Source: an uncultured Pelagibacteraceae bacterium (GTDB taxonomy: Bacteria; Pseudomonadota; Alphaproteobacteria; Pelagibacterales; Pelagibacteraceae). Taken from it: a stretch of DNA of 35,367 nt. The notes under the pieces are model-generated. The model searched no databases and was not told where the DNA came from. It worked only from the letters and a program-made list of their open reading frames with translations. A program made the position numbers and the translations under genes. Below are positions 7,741-27,279 of this stretch, one piece after another. The stretch lies in contig CACGLI010000008.1 of NCBI GenBank assembly GCA_902573865.1, forward strand, positions 1 through 35,367, written 5' to 3'. Each line of letters starts with the position of its first letter. Positions within the stretch are counted from its first letter, which is position 1.

Positions 7741-7797
7741 TTTTTCTCCGTCCTTCTGGAGAAGAATGAACGAGATTTAATTCTGTTCATCTTCTCC
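7735..7797 (-). promoter_or_regulatory. Alternative hairpins at the two leader start sites
   Basis: One 14-nt strand (minus strand, 7771-7758, GTTCATTCTTCTCC) is complementary both to the ribosome site and start of leader ORF 1 (7797-7785, GGAGAAGATGAAC, one bulge) and to those of leader ORF 2 (7749-7735, GGAGAAAAAATGAAC). Only one pairing can form at a time. The downstream version has 8+6 bp and an 8-nt loop; the upstream version has a 13-nt loop. Each hides a Shine-Dalgarno sequence, so translating ORF 1 would open the site of ORF 2. Pairing is seen directly; the switch is inferred. Confidence 0.5.
7737..7790 (-). CDS. Candidate leader ORF 1, 17 codons, upstream of metY
   Basis: ATG at 7790 encodes MNRIKSRSFFSRRTEKK, a very basic peptide, ending at TGA 7739-7737, which overlaps the ATG of leader ORF 2. 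AAGGAG (minus strand, 7799-7794) lies 3 nt before the ATG, a strong motif at short spacing. This motif is also the 3' end of the putative second riboswitch. If a SAM-V-type element blocks this site, the ORF could pass that control on to metY by coupled re-initiation. This is inference; the ORF could also be non-functional. Confidence 0.35.
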   Translation of the reverse strand: MNRIKSRSFFSRRTEKK

Positions 7798-7850
7798 TTT
7801 TTAGTACTTCGGCAATTGCCAGGTGTACAATATGGTTCAAATACCCGGTT
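7791..7850 (-). promoter_or_regulatory. Second structured leader segment, possible SAM-V riboswitch
   Basis: Between the terminator and the first leader ATG, the minus strand has TTGTAC, then a small stem GGC-AATT-GCC, GAAGTAC, and TAAAAAGGAG running into the Shine-Dalgarno sequence. GTAC pairs with GTAC around the small stem. From memory, SAM-V elements end in a similar AAGUCCURAAAAGG stretch, occlude the ribosome-binding site, and occur in tandem behind SAM-II before metY in Pelagibacter. The long P1 stem I would expect is not clear here, so the class assignment is tentative and rests partly on context. Confidence 0.42.
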
Positions 7851-7867
7851 TAGTTTTAGATTGTTCC

Positions 7868-21034: not shown

Positions 21035-21350
21035 CAATATTATCATTTTAGCTATTATTGCAACTTCAATTGCAACATACATATCCAGATTTATGGGGGC
21101 ATTGACTTCAGAAAAAGTTAGTGCGGAGTCAAATATTTTTAAGTGGTTTAATTGTGTTGCTTATTCTACTTTAGCTGCCTTACTTGGCAGGATGATAATT
21201 TTTCCGGCTGGAGTTCTTGCGGAGTCCGAATTGATAACTAGGCTAATAGTATTTTTTGTATGTATTGCCATATTTATAATTAGTAAAAAAAATTTAGTTA
21301 TCCCAACAATATTATCTGCTATACTTCTATCAACATTGAATAGCTTATGA
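21024..21350 (+). CDS. azlD: AzlD-family exporter small subunit
   Basis: Small partner of AzlC: 108 residues, four hydrophobic segments, with the family pattern TYISRFMGALTSEK (usually TY-hhR), FNCVAYSTLAALLGRMI and the C-terminal LSAILLSTLNSL. I take the ATG at 21024, with GGAG 6 nt before it; a TTG at 21012 is in frame but lies upstream of that site. It overlaps azlC by 11 bp and glaH by 4 bp. Confidence 0.82.
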   Translation: MLTSNIIILAIIATSIATYISRFMGALTSEKVSAESNIFKWFNCVAYSTLAALLGRMIIFPAGVLAESELITRLIVFFVCIAIFIISKKNLVIPTILSAILLSTLNSL

Positions 21351-22249
21351 GTTTAAAAATTTTAGACCACGAAAAATCTAAACGTATTAAGGTAATTAAA
21401 ATAGAGGAGAAGGAATTAGACAAATTAATCTTTCCTTTTAAAAAACACTCTATTCAATCTTTAGAATACAAACCTTTTTCAAGATTTACCATCGCTAAAG
21501 CTTTAGACGATTGTTTGGAAAAGAAATTGAGTGGAACCTTAAAAGAGGTACTTAATGATAGAGATTCAGGAACTGTGATAGTTGAACCAATTATAAATGA
21601 TAAAAAATTTGATAAAGAATTTTTAGTAAAACTATCTACTTGTTTAGCTTATTTAGTTGGCTTGCCTAATTTCGACTCCATGACTGGTAAATATTATGCT
21701 AGATTTACTGTTAAGCATTCTGACTCAAGTGACTCATATCTAAGAAAAGCTTATAAAAATCTCGATCTTCATACTGACGGGACTTATGTAAAAGAAAAAA
21801 CTGATTGGTTAATTATGACTAAACTTGAAGAAAAAAATGTTTCGGGTGGAGAAAGTGTAATACTTCACCTTGATGACTGGGAATATCTTGATGAATTAAA
21901 CAGTAATCCAATTGGAAAAGAAAATTTTATTTGGGGTTCACCTAAAAGTAAGAATATTGATTATAAGGTAGAGCATCCTGTCTTTTCAAAGGGCCATGAT
22001 GGTAAACCAATTATTTCTTATATTGATCAGTTCCCGGAACCAAAAAACATGGATCAAGGTTTATTCCTTCAGAAACTCTCTGATGCTTTAGAGCAAAGTA
22101 AAAATAAAATAAGCTTTCCATTACCTGTCGGTTCTACTATTTTTTCTAACAATTATTTTTGGTTACACGGTAGAAGAGCATTTAAAGAGCATACTGGGCT
22201 TTCAAGAGAACTTTTAAGAATTAGAGGTACTTTTTTTCAGCCAAATTAG
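21347..22249 (+). CDS. glaH: Glutarate 2-hydroxylase (GlaH/CsiD), Fe(II)/2-oxoglutarate oxygenase
   Basis: In E. coli this enzyme converts glutarate to L-2-hydroxyglutarate with 2-oxoglutarate and oxygen, after lysine breakdown. The match with E. coli CsiD as I recall it is long and clear: QSLEYKPFSRFTIAKALDD, NFDSMTGKYYARFTVK, SDSYLRKAYK, LHTDGTYV, VILHLDDWEYLD, ISYIDQF and NNYFWLHGR. Metal ligands are probably His142, Asp144 and His274, and Arg residues in SRELLRIRG could bind 2-oxoglutarate. At 300 residues it is about 25 shorter than CsiD, mostly at the N terminus. Its ATG overlaps azlD by 4 bp, placing it last in the livHMGF-azlCD run, and a Tct transporter follows. No LhgO gene is seen nearby. 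Confidence 0.88.
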   Translation: MSLKILDHEKSKRIKVIKIEEKELDKLIFPFKKHSIQSLEYKPFSRFTIAKALDDCLEKKLSGTLKEVLNDRDSGTVIVEPIINDKKFDKEFLVKLSTCLAYLVGLPNFDSMTGKYYARFTVKHSDSSDSYLRKAYKNLDLHTDGTYVKEKTDWLIMTKLEEKNVSGGESVILHLDDWEYLDELNSNPIGKENFIWGSPKSKNIDYKVEHPVFSKGHDGKPIISYIDQFPEPKNMDQGLFLQKLSDALEQSKNKISFPLPVGSTIFSNNYFWLHGRRAFKEHTGLSRELLRIRGTFFQPN

Positions 22250-22327: not shown

Positions 22328-23317
22328 ATGTTTAATAAACTCAAAAAACTAATCAGTATAGTTTTTGCCACTGTTCTTTTTACTTCAATTTCAAGCACAT
22401 CCTTTGCTATTGACAAATTACACTTTGTAATTGGTGGTGGAGCAGGTGGCGGTTGGGATGGAACTGCTAGAGGAACTGGTGAAGCTTTAACTAAAGCTGG
22501 TTTTTTAAAAAGTGCATCATTTGAAAATATGTCAGGTGGTGGTGGAGGAAAAGCTTTATCATATATGATAAATACTAAGCCTTCAGAAACAATTCTTGTT
22601 CAATCAACTCCTTTGGTTCTTAGATCAATAACTAGACACTCTGGTTATGTAGATAAAAAGAATGCGGCTAAAGTAACTTCATATAAAGATGTTGTTCCAA
22701 TAGCTGGAGTTATTGGTGATTATGGTGCAATTGTTGCAGCGAAAAATTCGCCATACAATTCATTTAAGGATGTTGTAAACGCTTATAAAGCTGATCCAAA
22801 GTCTGTAAAAATGGCTGGTGGTTCTGTTAGAGGAAGTATGGACCATTTAATTGGTGCGCTAGCTTTCAAACAAGCAGGTGCTGATCCAAATGCAGTTGTT
22901 TATGTTCCTTACGACGCAGGTGGTAAAGCTTTAGCTGGATTATTATCAGGTGAAACTCAAATTCTTTCAACAGGATTGGGAGAAGTTATGGGCGCAAGAG
23001 ACCAAGTAAAAATTCTTGGTATTACTGCTCCTAAGAGAGTAGCTGATGCCCCAGATGTTCCAACATTAAAAGAGCAAGGCTTTAATGTTCAGTTCGTAAA
23101 CTGGAGAGGTTTTTTTGGACCTCCAGGTATGAGCAATGCTGACAAAAAGAAAATTGCTAAAATGTTAGGTGATGTTCAGAAAACTCCTGAATGGGAAGCA
23201 GTTAGAAAAAGAAATGCTTGGGTAAATATTTACAACCCAGACAAAAAATTTGTTAAGTTCCTTCAGAACCAAACAAAAGAGATGACTGCACTTCTTAAGC
23301 AACTAGGAGTGATCTAA
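22328..23317 (+). CDS. tctC: Tripartite tricarboxylate transporter substrate-binding protein TctC
   Basis: Periplasmic solute receptor for a sodium-coupled TTT transporter taking up tricarboxylates, dicarboxylates or related acids. The 329 residues start with a signal peptide (LISIVFATVLFTSISSTSFA, cut before IDKLHF). Then come FVIGGGAGGGWDGTARGTGEAL, the Bug-family N-terminal loop for the ligand, FENMSGGGGGKALSYM, and VYVPYDAGGKALAGLLSGETQ in the middle, with FFGPPGMS later. The very Gly-rich first loop is typical. Substrate is not readable; the neighbouring glaH makes glutarate a candidate. Confidence 0.9.
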   Translation: MFNKLKKLISIVFATVLFTSISSTSFAIDKLHFVIGGGAGGGWDGTARGTGEALTKAGFLKSASFENMSGGGGGKALSYMINTKPSETILVQSTPLVLRSITRHSGYVDKKNAAKVTSYKDVVPIAGVIGDYGAIVAAKNSPYNSFKDVVNAYKADPKSVKMAGGSVRGSMDHLIGALAFKQAGADPNAVVYVPYDAGGKALAGLLSGETQILSTGLGEVMGARDQVKILGITAPKRVADAPDVPTLKEQGFNVQFVNWRGFFGPPGMSNADKKKIAKMLGDVQKTPEWEAVRKRNAWVNIYNPDKKFVKFLQNQTKEMTALLKQLGVI

Positions 23318-23329
23318 TAAATAATTAGG

Positions 23330-23386
23330 AAAGAGCAGTGAAAATTACACCATCAAAAATAATTTCACTGCTCTTTTTCGTTTTTT
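23330..23386 (+). terminator. Terminator-like hairpin containing the tctB start codon
   Basis: AAAGAGCAGTGAAA (23330-23343) and TTTCACTGCTCTTT (23363-23376) form a perfect 14-bp inverted repeat with a 19-nt loop, followed by TTCGTTTTTT. The GTG start of tctB (23338-23340) is inside the 5' arm, and its ribosome site AGGA abuts the stem. The structure should cut transcription after tctC and also hinder tctB initiation. Confidence 0.75.
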
Positions 23387-23808
23387 CAGGATTTTATCTT
23401 TACTACGCACATCAAATTCAAGTTTTTACTTTTGATGAAAATGCACCATTTAATGCTAAGACTTTTCCAATTTATTTAGGTTATGCAGGACTTATTTTTT
23501 CTGCTCTTTATATTATTTTACCAGAAACAAAACCTACAAATGTTAATCTAAGAATTTTAGATTATAAAAAAACAATTTTATTAGTTGTTCTAATGATTTT
23601 ATATGGAATTTTTATTTTAAGAGCAGGGTACTTTCTTTCTACATCAATTTTTTTAGTTCTTTCATATATTGTGTTAGGTGAAAGAAAATGGTTATGGATA
23701 TTTACATTGTCATTTCCATTTGTGGCAGTTTTTATGTACCTACTCCACGGCCTTCTAAATATTTATCTTCGTGATCCATTTTTAAAATTTATAGGAATAA
23801 TGGGATGA
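23338..23808 (+). CDS. tctB: Tripartite tricarboxylate transporter small membrane subunit TctB
   Basis: TctB (DUF1468 family) is the four-helix membrane partner of TctA. In 156 residues it has hydrophobic segments IISLLFFVFSGFYLYYA, FPIYLGYAGLIFSALYIIL, ILLVVLMILYGIFI and the paired C-terminal helices from GYFLSTSIFLVLSYIVLG onward. The start must be GTG at 23338: an in-frame TAG lies four codons upstream, AGGA is 7 nt before it, and no other start occurs before the first helix. Codons 1-13 lie within the hairpin described at this place. It overlaps tctA by 4 bp. Confidence 0.88.
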   Translation: MKITPSKIISLLFFVFSGFYLYYAHQIQVFTFDENAPFNAKTFPIYLGYAGLIFSALYIILPETKPTNVNLRILDYKKTILLVVLMILYGIFILRAGYFLSTSIFLVLSYIVLGERKWLWIFTLSFPFVAVFMYLLHGLLNIYLRDPFLKFIGIMG

Positions 23809-25310
23809 TTGAGGGAATACTAATTGGATTAGAGACAGCGCTTTCATTTAAAAATTTGATGATGGTAATGATAGGATGTTTCGCAGGTACCATCATCGGC
23901 ATGTTGCCGGGTTTAGGTCCTATGACTGCAATCGCGTTGATGATACCCATAACTTATGGTTTTGAACCATCAACAGGATTAATCTTGATGGCTGGTGTTT
24001 ATTACGGAGCTGTGTTTGGTGGATCTACATCTTCTATACTGATAAACGCTCCAGGAATTCCAGGCACTGTTGCAACATCTTTCGATGGTTATCCAATGGC
24101 TCAACAAGGTAAAGCAGGCAAAGCACTAGCTATAGCAGCATACAGTTCATTTGCGGGGGGAACTATCGCTGCAATTTTTTTACTTATTGCAGCGCCTAGT
24201 CTTTCAAAAGTAAGTTTGGCATTTAGGTCCCCAGATTATTTTGGTTTAATGATATTGGGCCTTACTGCTGTCTCAGCATTTTCAGCGAAAGGACATTTTT
24301 TAAAAGCTATGATGATGGTCGTTTTAGGATTAATGCTTGCAAGTGTCGGACAAGATACTTTATCCGACATCCCAAGATTTACTTTTCAAAATATGAATTT
24401 ATCAGATGGCATAAGCTTTGTTTTAGTTGTAATGGCTACTTTTGCAATGAGCGAAGCTTTAATGATAATATTTAAGGGAAATGACCCATCTAGAGCAGCG
24501 CAACGAATATCTTTATCACAATTAGGCTCAATAAAACTTGACAAAATAGAAACAAAAAAAATGATAAATACAATTCCACGTTCATCTGTTCTTGGTTTTG
24601 TAATTGGTGTACTTCCTGGAGCTGGATCTACTATTGCCTCCTTTTTAGCTTATGGAATGGAAAGAAACTTTGTTAACGATGAAGAAAAACAAAAATTTGG
24701 AAAAGGAAGTGTTAACGGATTAGCAGCCCCAGAAACAGCAAACAACGCAGCGTGTTCAGGTTCATTTGTTCCACTTCTAACCCTAGGCATACCTGGAAGT
24801 GGAACTACAGCTGTAATGCTTGGCGCTTTATTGGGTTTTGGAATACAACCAGGTCCAAGATTATATCAAACTAATCCTGAAATTTTCTGGTCAGTAATAA
24901 TGTCAATGTATATCGGAATGGTTATTTTGTTAATTCTTAACTTGCCATTAATACCTTACATTGCAAGAGTACTGGCAACACCAAGAACATTTTTAATCCC
25001 TTTAATACTATTTTTTTCTGTAACAGGTATATATTTAATGTCTTTCAACAATTTTGATATTTATATGATGATCGGTATAGCTGTAGTAGCAACTGCTCTC
25101 AGACTTTATGATTTTCCAATGCCGCCACTCATTCTAGCTTTTGTTTTGGGAGGATTAATGGAGGAAAATTTAAGAAGATCATTGCTTATAAGTGATGGTT
25201 CTTTCAGTTTTTTATGGGATAGACCACTTACATTTATAATTATGATCACGATTCTCGTTATAGTTGGCTGGCAAATGTACAAATCTTTTATAGGGAAAAA
25301 AAATTCCTAA
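23805..25310 (+). CDS. tctA: Tripartite tricarboxylate transporter large permease TctA
   Basis: Main transport subunit, 501 residues with about twelve hydrophobic segments, driven by an ion gradient. The two inverted half-signatures are present: GCFAGTIIGMLPGLGPMTAIAL near residue 25 and FVIGVLPGAGSTIASFLAYG near residue 262, together with YGAVFGGSTSSILINAPGIPG and GIPGSGTTAVMLGALLGFG. Length is standard. It ends the tctCBA operon; no clear intrinsic terminator follows in the next 140 bp. Confidence 0.94.
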   Translation: MIEGILIGLETALSFKNLMMVMIGCFAGTIIGMLPGLGPMTAIALMIPITYGFEPSTGLILMAGVYYGAVFGGSTSSILINAPGIPGTVATSFDGYPMAQQGKAGKALAIAAYSSFAGGTIAAIFLLIAAPSLSKVSLAFRSPDYFGLMILGLTAVSAFSAKGHFLKAMMMVVLGLMLASVGQDTLSDIPRFTFQNMNLSDGISFVLVVMATFAMSEALMIIFKGNDPSRAAQRISLSQLGSIKLDKIETKKMINTIPRSSVLGFVIGVLPGAGSTIASFLAYGMERNFVNDEEKQKFGKGSVNGLAAPETANNAACSGSFVPLLTLGIPGSGTTAVMLGALLGFGIQPGPRLYQTNPEIFWSVIMSMYIGMVILLILNLPLIPYIARVLATPRTFLIPLILFFSVTGIYLMSFNNFDIYMMIGIAVVATALRLYDFPMPPLILAFVLGGLMEENLRRSLLISDGSFSFLWDRPLTFIIMITILVIVGWQMYKSFIGKKNS

Positions 25311-25452: not shown

Positions 25453-26160
25453 ATGAAAAAAATATTTGCGATATTAACTGCTTTATTTTTTGTAGTTTCA
25501 ACAAACGCCTACGCTAACGGCTGGGGTGTTGGAGTAACTGGTTCTATATTATTTGTGGAAGCAAGTGGTACTGAAGGCGATGGTACCAATACTAATGGTA
25601 CAGAAACAGAGGCATCTACTCGAACTATTGATGTAGATGAAACTTCTTTCGTTGGTTCTGGATTTCTTGAATATGCTTGGGACGCCACGTATGCAGGAGA
25701 TGGTAATGGAATAACGCTAGGGATAAGTTATACTCCAGGTTCAGCTGATGTTTCTGGAGAAAAACATACCAGAACAGACGCAGATGCAGAGGGTACAGGA
25801 GATGATGGATCATCAGATGGTTCAACAACTTATACTGCTGCTGCAGAGGTAAGCGACTACATTAATTATTATGTAGAAATTCCAGTTCGTGGTCCTTTAT
25901 ACATCAAAGGTGGATTATCACAAATTGATGTGACTACACAGGAAACAGGTGGAAGTAACACTGGTACATATCCTAACTCTACACTTGATGGCCTAAACTT
26001 AGGAATAGGTATTAAAGGTGGAAGTGGAAGCGTCTTTTACAAGGCCGCTTACGAGATGACTAATTTTGACGATTACAGTGAGTCATCTTCTACAGGAAAT
26101 ACAGTAACTGCAGATCTAGACACAACAGAATTTAACTTCTCTGTTGGATACAGATTTTAA
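25453..26160 (+). CDS. Predicted outer-membrane beta-barrel protein
   Basis: A 235-residue protein with a signal peptide (MKKIFAILTALFFVVSTNAYA, then NGWGVGVTGS). The mature part alternates polar and aromatic residues in strands such as FLEYAWDATY, ITLGISYTPG, YINYYVEIPV, GSVFYKAAYEMTNF and ends TEFNFSVGYRF, the terminal Phe typical of BAM-inserted barrels. Roughly eight strands fit the length. Two exposed loops are strongly Thr/Asp/Gly/Ser-rich (about residues 36-56 and 98-120), acidic and low in complexity. No named family recognised. Strong ribosome site and terminator suggest high expression. It could be a small porin or a structural barrel. Confidence 0.75.
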   Translation: MKKIFAILTALFFVVSTNAYANGWGVGVTGSILFVEASGTEGDGTNTNGTETEASTRTIDVDETSFVGSGFLEYAWDATYAGDGNGITLGISYTPGSADVSGEKHTRTDADAEGTGDDGSSDGSTTYTAAAEVSDYINYYVEIPVRGPLYIKGGLSQIDVTTQETGGSNTGTYPNSTLDGLNLGIGIKGGSGSVFYKAAYEMTNFDDYSESSSTGNTVTADLDTTEFNFSVGYRF

Positions 26161-26178: not shown

Positions 26179-27279
26179 TTAAAACCCGTCATAATTTTTT
26201 GACGGGTTTTTTTTTGATACGATCTTTAAAATCACAGGAACAATAAATAATATTATTAATAATCTTATTATGTGATGAAAAGATACAAATTCTGGATCTA
26301 AGTCAAAAAAAATTGCTATAACTGCAACTTCATATATTCCACCAGGGCAATATGATAAAATTAATGAAAAAATATTTTTATCTATTACAAGGCTGGCAAT
26401 ATAAGCTGCTATCAATCCTAATATAACTAGTAAAGAAGTTGCAACCAAACTATGAAAAGCATTTTTACTTATTTCACTAAATGTTTTATCAGCAAATCTA
26501 CACCCAACTGACGATCCCAATATTAAAAGACAATAATCAACAATGTTCGAGGAAAATTGATAACTTGCTATTTCAGTAATTTGTAATATTCCACTAGCAA
26601 CTAAAGTTCCAGATAATAATGCGGCAGGAAATTTTATTTTATCGAACAAATGAATAAGACATATAGAAAAAACTATTAAAGCAAGGAGGTGATATTCATT
26701 CTGGTCACCGAAAACCTGAGGAATGTTATTTCCATTTTCTACATTATAGAAACTATTAACAAAAAAAGGGAAAATTGTTATAATTATAATAAGCCTTATT
26801 AAATGAGCAGTTGCCACATGACTTAAGTCACTTTTTTGGTCCTCTGCTAAAATCATTAATGGTCCTAGCGCTCCGGGCGCCGCAGAAAAAATTGATGTTT
26901 TTTTTTCATAATTTGAGAATTTTTGCAAATACTTTGACACAATAAAAATACTTACCAAAATATAAACAAACATAATTAAAGAGGTAAATGCCCACTCATG
27001 AATTTGTGAAAATAAATCTTTATCAATGTAATTTCCAATGTATAGTCCGAGTAAAATCAATATTGATGCCAATACTAATCGTGGAATTCTAATTTTTAGA
27101 CCCAAAAGGGCGGCTAAAGATGTTGCTAACATTGGACCCAAAAACCAAGCTAAGGGTAATTTTAAAAAATCGGCCAATAATGCACTTGGAAATGAAACAA
27201 CCAAAACAAGCAGAAATTTGATTGAAAAGATTTGTTTAAAATTTTCTTTATTAAAGGGTATAACTTGGTTATTTTGCAT
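26179..27279 (-). CDS. AbrB-family membrane protein (PF05145)
   Basis: Polytopic inner-membrane protein of the family once labelled putative ammonia monooxygenase; function remains uncertain and transporter activity is assumed. The 366 residues carry about ten hydrophobic segments in two AbrB-duplication repeats: LPLAWFLGPMLATSLAALLGL near residue 42 and AAPGALGPLMILAEDQ in the first half, then GSSVGCRFA and SYCPGGIYEVAVIAIFFDLDPEFVSFHHIIRLL in the second. Its ATG is only 5 bp from the divergent ProC-like start codon, and the upstream DNA shows no Shine-Dalgarno sequence. Convergent with the outer-membrane gene. Confidence 0.85.
   Translation of the reverse strand: MQNNQVIPFNKENFKQIFSIKFLLVLVVSFPSALLADFLKLPLAWFLGPMLATSLAALLGLKIRIPRLVLASILILLGLYIGNYIDKDLFSQIHEWAFTSLIMFVYILVSIFIVSKYLQKFSNYEKKTSIFSAAPGALGPLMILAEDQKSDLSHVATAHLIRLIIIITIFPFFVNSFYNVENGNNIPQVFGDQNEYHLLALIVFSICLIHLFDKIKFPAALLSGTLVASGILQITEIASYQFSSNIVDYCLLILGSSVGCRFADKTFSEISKNAFHSLVATSLLVILGLIAAYIASLVIDKNIFSLILSYCPGGIYEVAVIAIFFDLDPEFVSFHHIIRLLIILFIVPVILKIVSKKNPSKNYDGF
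26181..26215. terminator. Bidirectional intrinsic terminator between the barrel gene and the abrB-like gene
   Basis: AAACCCGTC and GACGGGTTT form a 9-bp stem, followed by T residues on the plus side to 26215. On the minus strand the same stem is followed by TTTTAATTTTTTTG, so it can also end the opposing gene. The stem encodes the last codons (DGF and stop) of the minus-strand gene. Confidence 0.85.

Follow-up and report, generated by a model that had tools for sequence, protein, structure and literature searches.

A family-wide hairpin at the tctC–tctB junction of SAR11 encloses the tctB start codon and keeps the anatomy of a terminator

How can one operon in a compact genome deliver a binding protein and its membrane partners in unequal amounts? 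SAR11 bacteria rank among the most numerous cells of the ocean, depend on binding-protein transporters, and have few regulators. The question is raised here by a stretch of DNA of 35,367 nucleotides that was analysed as a whole (the window; contig C8 of a SAR11-family genome of 846,272 bases, 70% complete). The genes csiD, tctC, tctB, and tctA follow one another in this order, each with Pfam support. The tripartite tricarboxylate transporter (TTT) is encoded on the plus strand by tctC (periplasmic binding protein, 22328..23317; PF03401, E 1.5e-19), tctB (small membrane subunit, 23338..23808; PF07331, E 1.8e-14), and tctA (large membrane subunit, 23805..25310; PF01970, E 2.4e-148). The reading frames of tctB and tctA overlap by 4 nt, and 20 bases lie between the tctC stop codon (TAA, 23315-23317, plus strand) and the tctB start. 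Directly 5' of tctC is a gene assigned by Pfam to the CsiD family (21347-22249). CsiD is presumably a glutarate hydroxylase, and this neighbour hints that the substrate may be a dicarboxylate, for instance glutarate.

The tctC–tctB junction contains an inverted repeat. A sequence-only reading had described it as perfect over 14 bp, as including the GTG start and the first 13 codons of tctB, and as followed by a T-rich tract, and all three points are borne out. The 5' arm AAAGAGCAGTGAAA (23330..23343, plus strand) includes the start codon GTG (23338..23340, plus strand), and the 3' arm TTTCACTGCTCTTT (23363..23376, plus strand) contains the codons Ser10-Leu11-Leu12-Phe13, so that positions 23338-23376 are exactly 13 codons. 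The arms of 14 nt are 100% complementary and have 19 nt between them. The tract at 23377..23387 (plus strand) reads TTCGTTTTTTC; from its sequence and the T counts in relatives, it is the predicted site of transcript release. Inner TTA/TAA pairs are possible in the apical region (23344..23362, plus strand), and in folds at 20 and 10 °C they cut the loop to 12 nt. The length of this region is constant because tctB has 156 codons in all 128 sequences of the alignment described below. A Shine-Dalgarno-like AGGA (23327..23330, plus strand) lies 7 nt 5' of the GTG, and its bases are each paired at a probability of 0.88-0.96 in the predicted fold of the window. The main stem starts 12 nt 3' of the tctC stop. 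The RNA from 23310 to 23400 is predicted to fold at -21.2 kcal/mol (z = -4.4), a stability reached by 0 of 200 shuffles; the hairpin itself is at -19.1 kcal/mol at 37 °C, and six other SAR11 terminator-like hairpins range from -15.9 to -23.2. Since an in-frame stop is present at 23326-23328, upstream of the GTG, and an upstream in-frame ATG, GTG, or TTG alternative is absent in 126 of the 128 sequences, the GTG is the sole plausible start of tctB.

The rarity of such a structure was assessed in a genome sample of 415,367 bases, made up of 19 stretches of 20 kb and the window. The tctB repeat is the second-longest of the seven perfect inverted repeats that have arms of 12 nt or more, a loop of 3-30 nt, and 4 or more G/C in each arm; without the G/C filter the count is 4,960, mostly repeats poorer in G/C. 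Thirteen terminator-like hairpins were found when both strands were scanned for stems of 9 bp or more with a minimum of 3 G/C, a loop of 3-20 nt, and 6 or more T among 8 bases, and only that of tctB has a start codon inside it. The remaining 12 either fall outside the ORFs predicted on their own strand or sit at the ends of such ORFs. By fold energy around the start, tctB ranks 6th of 436 predicted genes, with genes called simply as the longest ORFs. A simple terminator scan with loops of 3-8 nt only does not list the tctB hairpin. A second copy of the element was not found in its own genome, where the best other non-overlapping match has just E 0.024.

Relatives were collected from three overlapping sources. 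TctB is present in 205 of 397 family genomes, and the best 30 of these 205 were taken as loci; the best 80 of 591 loci were taken from named genomes searched with TctA, and 19 usable stretches, hand-picked for spread, were added. The alignment started with 130 sequences including the window. Two were left out, L051 (tctB start missing) and L089 (aligning only from residue 54, with the hairpin visible), and the remaining 128 include duplicates (the window is there twice) and are 117 distinct sequences over tctB. A covariance model detects the element in 166 of 397 genomes of the order, and all of those listed belong to the same family; four of the 166 matches are weak (E 1e-5 to 1e-3) and come from genomes not listed with TctB. 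All 40 same-genus TctB-bearing genomes (handles up to G191) have the element at E <=3.8e-17, as judged by eye. Among the matches listed, TctB identity goes down to 62% with the stem still kept.

Aligning the junction across SAR11 was one of the checks proposed by the sequence-only reading, and the stem is kept in the 128 junctions. Nine core pairs are unbroken in 123 of them, and one pair is broken in the other 5. The bases of the start codon are paired at a probability of ~1.0 in the predicted fold of every junction, and the fold z has a median of -4.2 (range -6.7 to -1.7). The tctB start is GTG in 128/128, never ATG.

It might be asked whether chance or the protein alone could produce such a pattern. 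The first helix of TctB is naturally T- and CT-rich, and stretches resembling LLF or LLFL are present in several of the distant TctB proteins. The codons chosen for these residues speak against this explanation. Codon 11 is CTG in all 128 sequences (117/117 distinct genes), and codon 12 is CTC in 115 and CTT in 13 (104 and 13 of the 117 distinct genes); in all 13 CTT sequences the partner base is A, not G. These are rare synonyms, as CTG makes up 2.7% and CTC 3.0% of Leu codons across the ORFs sampled. Of 70 TctB sites with a conserved amino acid, Leu11 and Leu12 depart most strongly from ordinary codon use, and the other Leu sites of TctB are mixed, mainly TTA or CTT. The noncoding 5' arm is also kept across the relatives. 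Protein constraint alone is ruled out by the frozen rare synonyms. An origin in chance or protein constraint only, which is further opposed by the median z over the 128 junctions and by co-changes between synonymous and noncoding positions, is given a negligible probability.

These co-changes were counted on a tree of tctB minus its first 60 bases, with a midpoint root and one parsimony reconstruction. The three tested pairs together show 9 same-branch partner changes vs. ~0.5 expected. Three belong to codon 2 and codon 9 (Ile9), which changed 10 and 5 times (0.22 expected), four to the third bases of codons 3 and 8 (12 and 5 changes; 0.26 expected), and two to base -5 and the third base of codon 12 (2 and 2 changes; 0.02 expected). 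Unmatched changes number 7 and 2 at codons 2/9 and 8 and 1 at codons 3/8. Two control pairs gave 0 same-branch co-changes (0.26 and 0.52 expected). The outer pair of base -8, the Shine-Dalgarno G, and codon 13 also gave 0 (15 and 4 changes, 0.26 expected), so the stem extension that pairs the Shine-Dalgarno sequence with Phe13 was not counted as support; a C at the Phe13 site goes with the Shine-Dalgarno G in 29 of the 31 distinct cores having C (94 cores in total). Across 47 distinct junctions, 97.7% of cells are paired in a structure derived from the same alignment, a value reached by 0 of 500 shuffles and compared with at most 64.4% in slid versions. Double-changed cells number 29 vs. 9.5 in the shuffles; 26 of the 500 shuffles had at least as many pairs with double changes (three), and 455 had at least as many pair types. 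On these comparative grounds, the pairing of the junction hairpin has demonstrably been maintained by selection across the SAR11 family; the start codon of tctB lies within the stem, and the anatomy of a terminator is retained.

A conserved palindrome might also act in the DNA, bound by a regulator protein. The near-perfect dyad and the invariant core of its half-sites would suit such an operator. The pattern of substitutions suits it poorly. One G.U wobble is found in 31 of the 128 junctions, and it breaks the dyad and not the RNA pairing. In 12 of the 47 distinct junctions the U of the start codon forms a U.G pair, through six separate A-to-G changes at the opposite base, which suits an RNA and not a DNA dyad. 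G-C -> A-U changes of the half-sites occur jointly on two branches, and a position inside an operon would be unusual. Disfavoured by wobbles and co-changes alike, the DNA operator is regarded as very improbable.

The RNA element has several features of an intrinsic terminator. Its stem-loop is stable, with a G+C-containing base of which the part GAGCAGTG is kept, and a T-rich tract directly follows the stem. Immediately after the stem core, 4-5 of five bases are T in 128/128, and at least 6 of 8 are T in 126/128. The loop, at 12 nt with the inner pairs and 19 nt without them, exceeds the usual length of about 3-8 nt; short terminator loops are a habit and not an absolute requirement. The attenuator suggested by the sequence-only reading is supported in its stem and terminator anatomy, which are kept in the 128 junctions, and is weakened by the T tract. 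Phe13 is TTT in 92 and TTC, which interrupts the T run, in 36 of the 128 sequences, against a TTT share of 84% among the Phe codons of the sampled ORFs, so there is no extra synonymous constraint on the tract.

This lack of constraint leaves room for a purely translational role, in which the hairpin would hide the Shine-Dalgarno sequence and the GTG and lower TctB with no real termination. Its opening might depend on ribosomes that complete tctC or on temperature, and the T run would be the Phe codons of the first membrane helix. Start pairing in all 128 predicted folds, which also agrees with the start masking put forward by the earlier reading as far as fold models can tell, is in line with this explanation, as are the GTG that is never ATG and a stem of unrelated sequence in two genomes outside the family (described below) that also pairs a Shine-Dalgarno sequence and a TTG start. 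In the folding model, both the start codon and the ribosome site of tctB are base-paired. The T-rich tail in 126/128 argues the other way. So do eight other SAR11 junctions, at which the hairpin lies before the next start. Translational control without termination is considered unlikely.

These other junctions come from four SAR11 genomes, in which 17 loci of two further binding-protein families were judged by eye. A same-strand ORF starts within about 110 nt downstream at 12 of the 17; not all of these ORFs were checked as permeases. A hairpin between the genes is present at 8 of the 12 (L235, L240, L243-L248), with a clear T run in seven and a short one in L235, and no intergenic hairpin is seen at the other four (L236-L239). 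At the five loci with no ORF in reach, L241, L242, and L250 have a hairpin and L249 and L251 have none. All eight junction hairpins precede the next start codon, so the shared trait is a hairpin after the binding-protein gene and not masking. The frequency of such hairpins fits a role in protein ratio and is consistent with the internal terminators of Clostridia (PMC9045158).

A stable stem right after a binding-protein gene could also protect a 3' end. The full operon would be transcribed and cut, and the hairpin would shield the tctC segment from 3' exonucleases, so that the segments decay differentially. Such selective processing and decay is considered as an alternative in PMC9045158. It overlaps with termination, as terminated ends would be shielded too; a stabiliser would require neither a T tract nor a position within tctB, and this explanation is judged improbable.

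Known classes of RNA were also considered. A known Rfam cis-regulatory RNA or riboswitch was rejected, since no family matches at the tctB hairpin at gathering score (43 sub-threshold matches at E up to 10). In start-masking hairpins and RNA thermometers, the Shine-Dalgarno sequence and the start codon are paired. Unlike RNA thermometers, the tctB stem is very stable and has a T-rich tail, and Lig_thermometer of Rfam is a sub-threshold match (E 0.32). The closest comparison is offered by the ABC importers of cellulolytic Clostridia, in which internal intrinsic terminators set the excess of the binding protein over the translocator (PMC9045158). As there, the tctC–tctB junction has a U-tailed stem-loop directly after the binding-protein gene and before the membrane genes of the same operon, with a long stem, an imperfect U tract, and a predicted excess of binding protein. 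The Clostridia terminators are intergenic, lie in ABC operons, and have been shown to terminate, whereas the SAR11 stem belongs to a secondary (TTT) transporter, lies inside tctB, holds the GTG and 13 tctB codons, covers the start, and would terminate on the strength of its sequence. The hairpin is best described as a putative variant of internal binding-protein terminators and not a proven member.

Work in E. coli is informative about the position within a gene. According to PMC4824070, a terminator remains functional when it is placed within 100 bp of the beginning of a coding region; expression upstream of it drops to about half, which is ascribed to non-stop mRNA, and is restored by silencing the start. 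Termination depends on the distance to the upstream stop codon, being weak just past it and full beyond about 27-30 nt. The reporter resembles tctB in having its terminator 3' of the start codon and no stop before the 3' end. It differs in being engineered with an exposed start, whereas the SAR11 arrangement is natural and conserved, and its start is paired in the stem. With a spacer of 18-35 nt between the tctC stop and the GTG in SAR11, the stem would sit in the range of partly repressed termination (cf. PMC4824070). As to earlier reports, a survey of structured RNAs in 'Candidatus Pelagibacter ubique' targeted long intergenic regions (Meyer et al. 2009, PMC2704228). Its motifs, like the tctB hairpin, are cis-acting SAR11 RNAs found by comparison; a junction of 20 nt would escape it because of this target, and the strings 'tct' and 'tricarboxyl' are absent from its main text. 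Searches of open-licence literature did not find this tctC–tctB junction reported.

The explanation that is favoured, with somewhat better than even confidence, is a leaky internal terminator after tctC that has moved into tctB and whose stem would also hide the tctB ribosome site. RNA polymerase leaving tctC would meet a leaky intrinsic terminator. Most transcripts would stop in the U tract (at about 23377-23387), leaving tctC mRNA, and a minority would continue into tctBA, so that TctC would outnumber TctBA. As the terminator lies within tctB, every terminated mRNA would have a tctB start without a stop codon. With the start and the ribosome site in the stem, ribosomes would be kept off, and non-stop translation of the abundant tctC mRNA would be avoided. 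A ribosome finishing tctC, with the stop 12 nt 5' of the stem, would delay folding of the 5' arm and favour read-through, and it could then start tctB. The hairpin has probably been kept so that TctC greatly exceeds the membrane channel. Several observations weigh against a combined terminator and lock. The loop of 12-19 nt is longer than usual in terminators, and masking of the start should also lower TctB from read-through mRNA. Moreover, Phe13 is TTC in 36 of the 128 sequences, a recognisable Shine-Dalgarno sequence is missing in 53, and many pair changes are unmatched. A bolder proposal is a self-locking terminator, in which termination, access to the start, and arrival of the ribosome would be one coupled switch that sets TctC:TctBA throughout SAR11 and perhaps arose separately, with unrelated stem bases, in a second alphaproteobacterial lineage (L203/L204); it is tentative and rather doubtful.

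The component parts are of known kinds; the nested, putatively start-locking arrangement and its conservation across the SAR11 family were absent from the literature searched. It constitutes a precise, family-wide RNA element bearing on the unequal output of one SAR11 transporter operon, and it indicates how a compact genome can fit a stem resembling a terminator into the gene that follows. Ordinary Leu-Leu-Phe codons are matched by the noncoding 5' arm and then frozen at rare synonyms. If start locking is true, it would explain how an overlap of terminator and gene escapes non-stop messages.

The reach of the element beyond the family was surveyed at 29 distant TctB loci from a phylum sample, with start codons picked by a rough rule and some of them uncertain. 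By eye, no comparable start-masking hairpin with a T tail was seen in this sample. The 27 loci that were scored have z from -3.1 to +1.8, and four of them, at -2 or below, overlap with the weakest SAR11 values. An ancient feature of all TTT operons was rejected, as no comparable hairpin was present in these 27. In two small genomes from another family of the same class, G594 (L189/L203) and G894 (L204), a stem unrelated in sequence covers a purine-rich Shine-Dalgarno sequence and a TTG start of tctB (z = -4.3 and -3.3). They are 2 of 150 genomes in their order. TctB of G594 is 42-44% identical to that of the window, and G894 and G594 share 93%; here the same design may have arisen independently.

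A wider SAR11 class of junctions with the start in a hairpin was also rejected. At the amino-acid permease junction, which has a GTG start, the folds of 28 distinct same-genus sequences are weak and unsteady. In two other genera (L238, L239), the permease GTG lies inside an A/T-rich hairpin, and only these looked similar.

A smaller hairpin is seen at the tctC stop in 42 of 81 distinct spacers vs. 13.9 expected, with a threshold chosen after the spacers had been viewed. The stop codon lies in or beside its 5' arm (e.g., L086, L091, L118). All 42 are in spacers of more than 18 nt (42/69), with 0 in 12 short spacers. The arms differ by lineage and yet still pair, and the stronger form is common with longer spacers. 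A possible weak form (TCTAAT/ATTAGG) occurs in the window at 23313..23329 (plus strand), suggested by its sequence and the family counts. Further downstream, a 235-aa ORF (25453-26160) has a signal-peptide-like start, as judged by eye, and is without a Pfam match. A hairpin at 26181-26210, between this ORF and an AbrB-family gene, has T runs on both sides and is likely a two-way terminator. The window also contains a SAM-V riboswitch at 7791-7855 on the minus strand, with a score of 66 bits.
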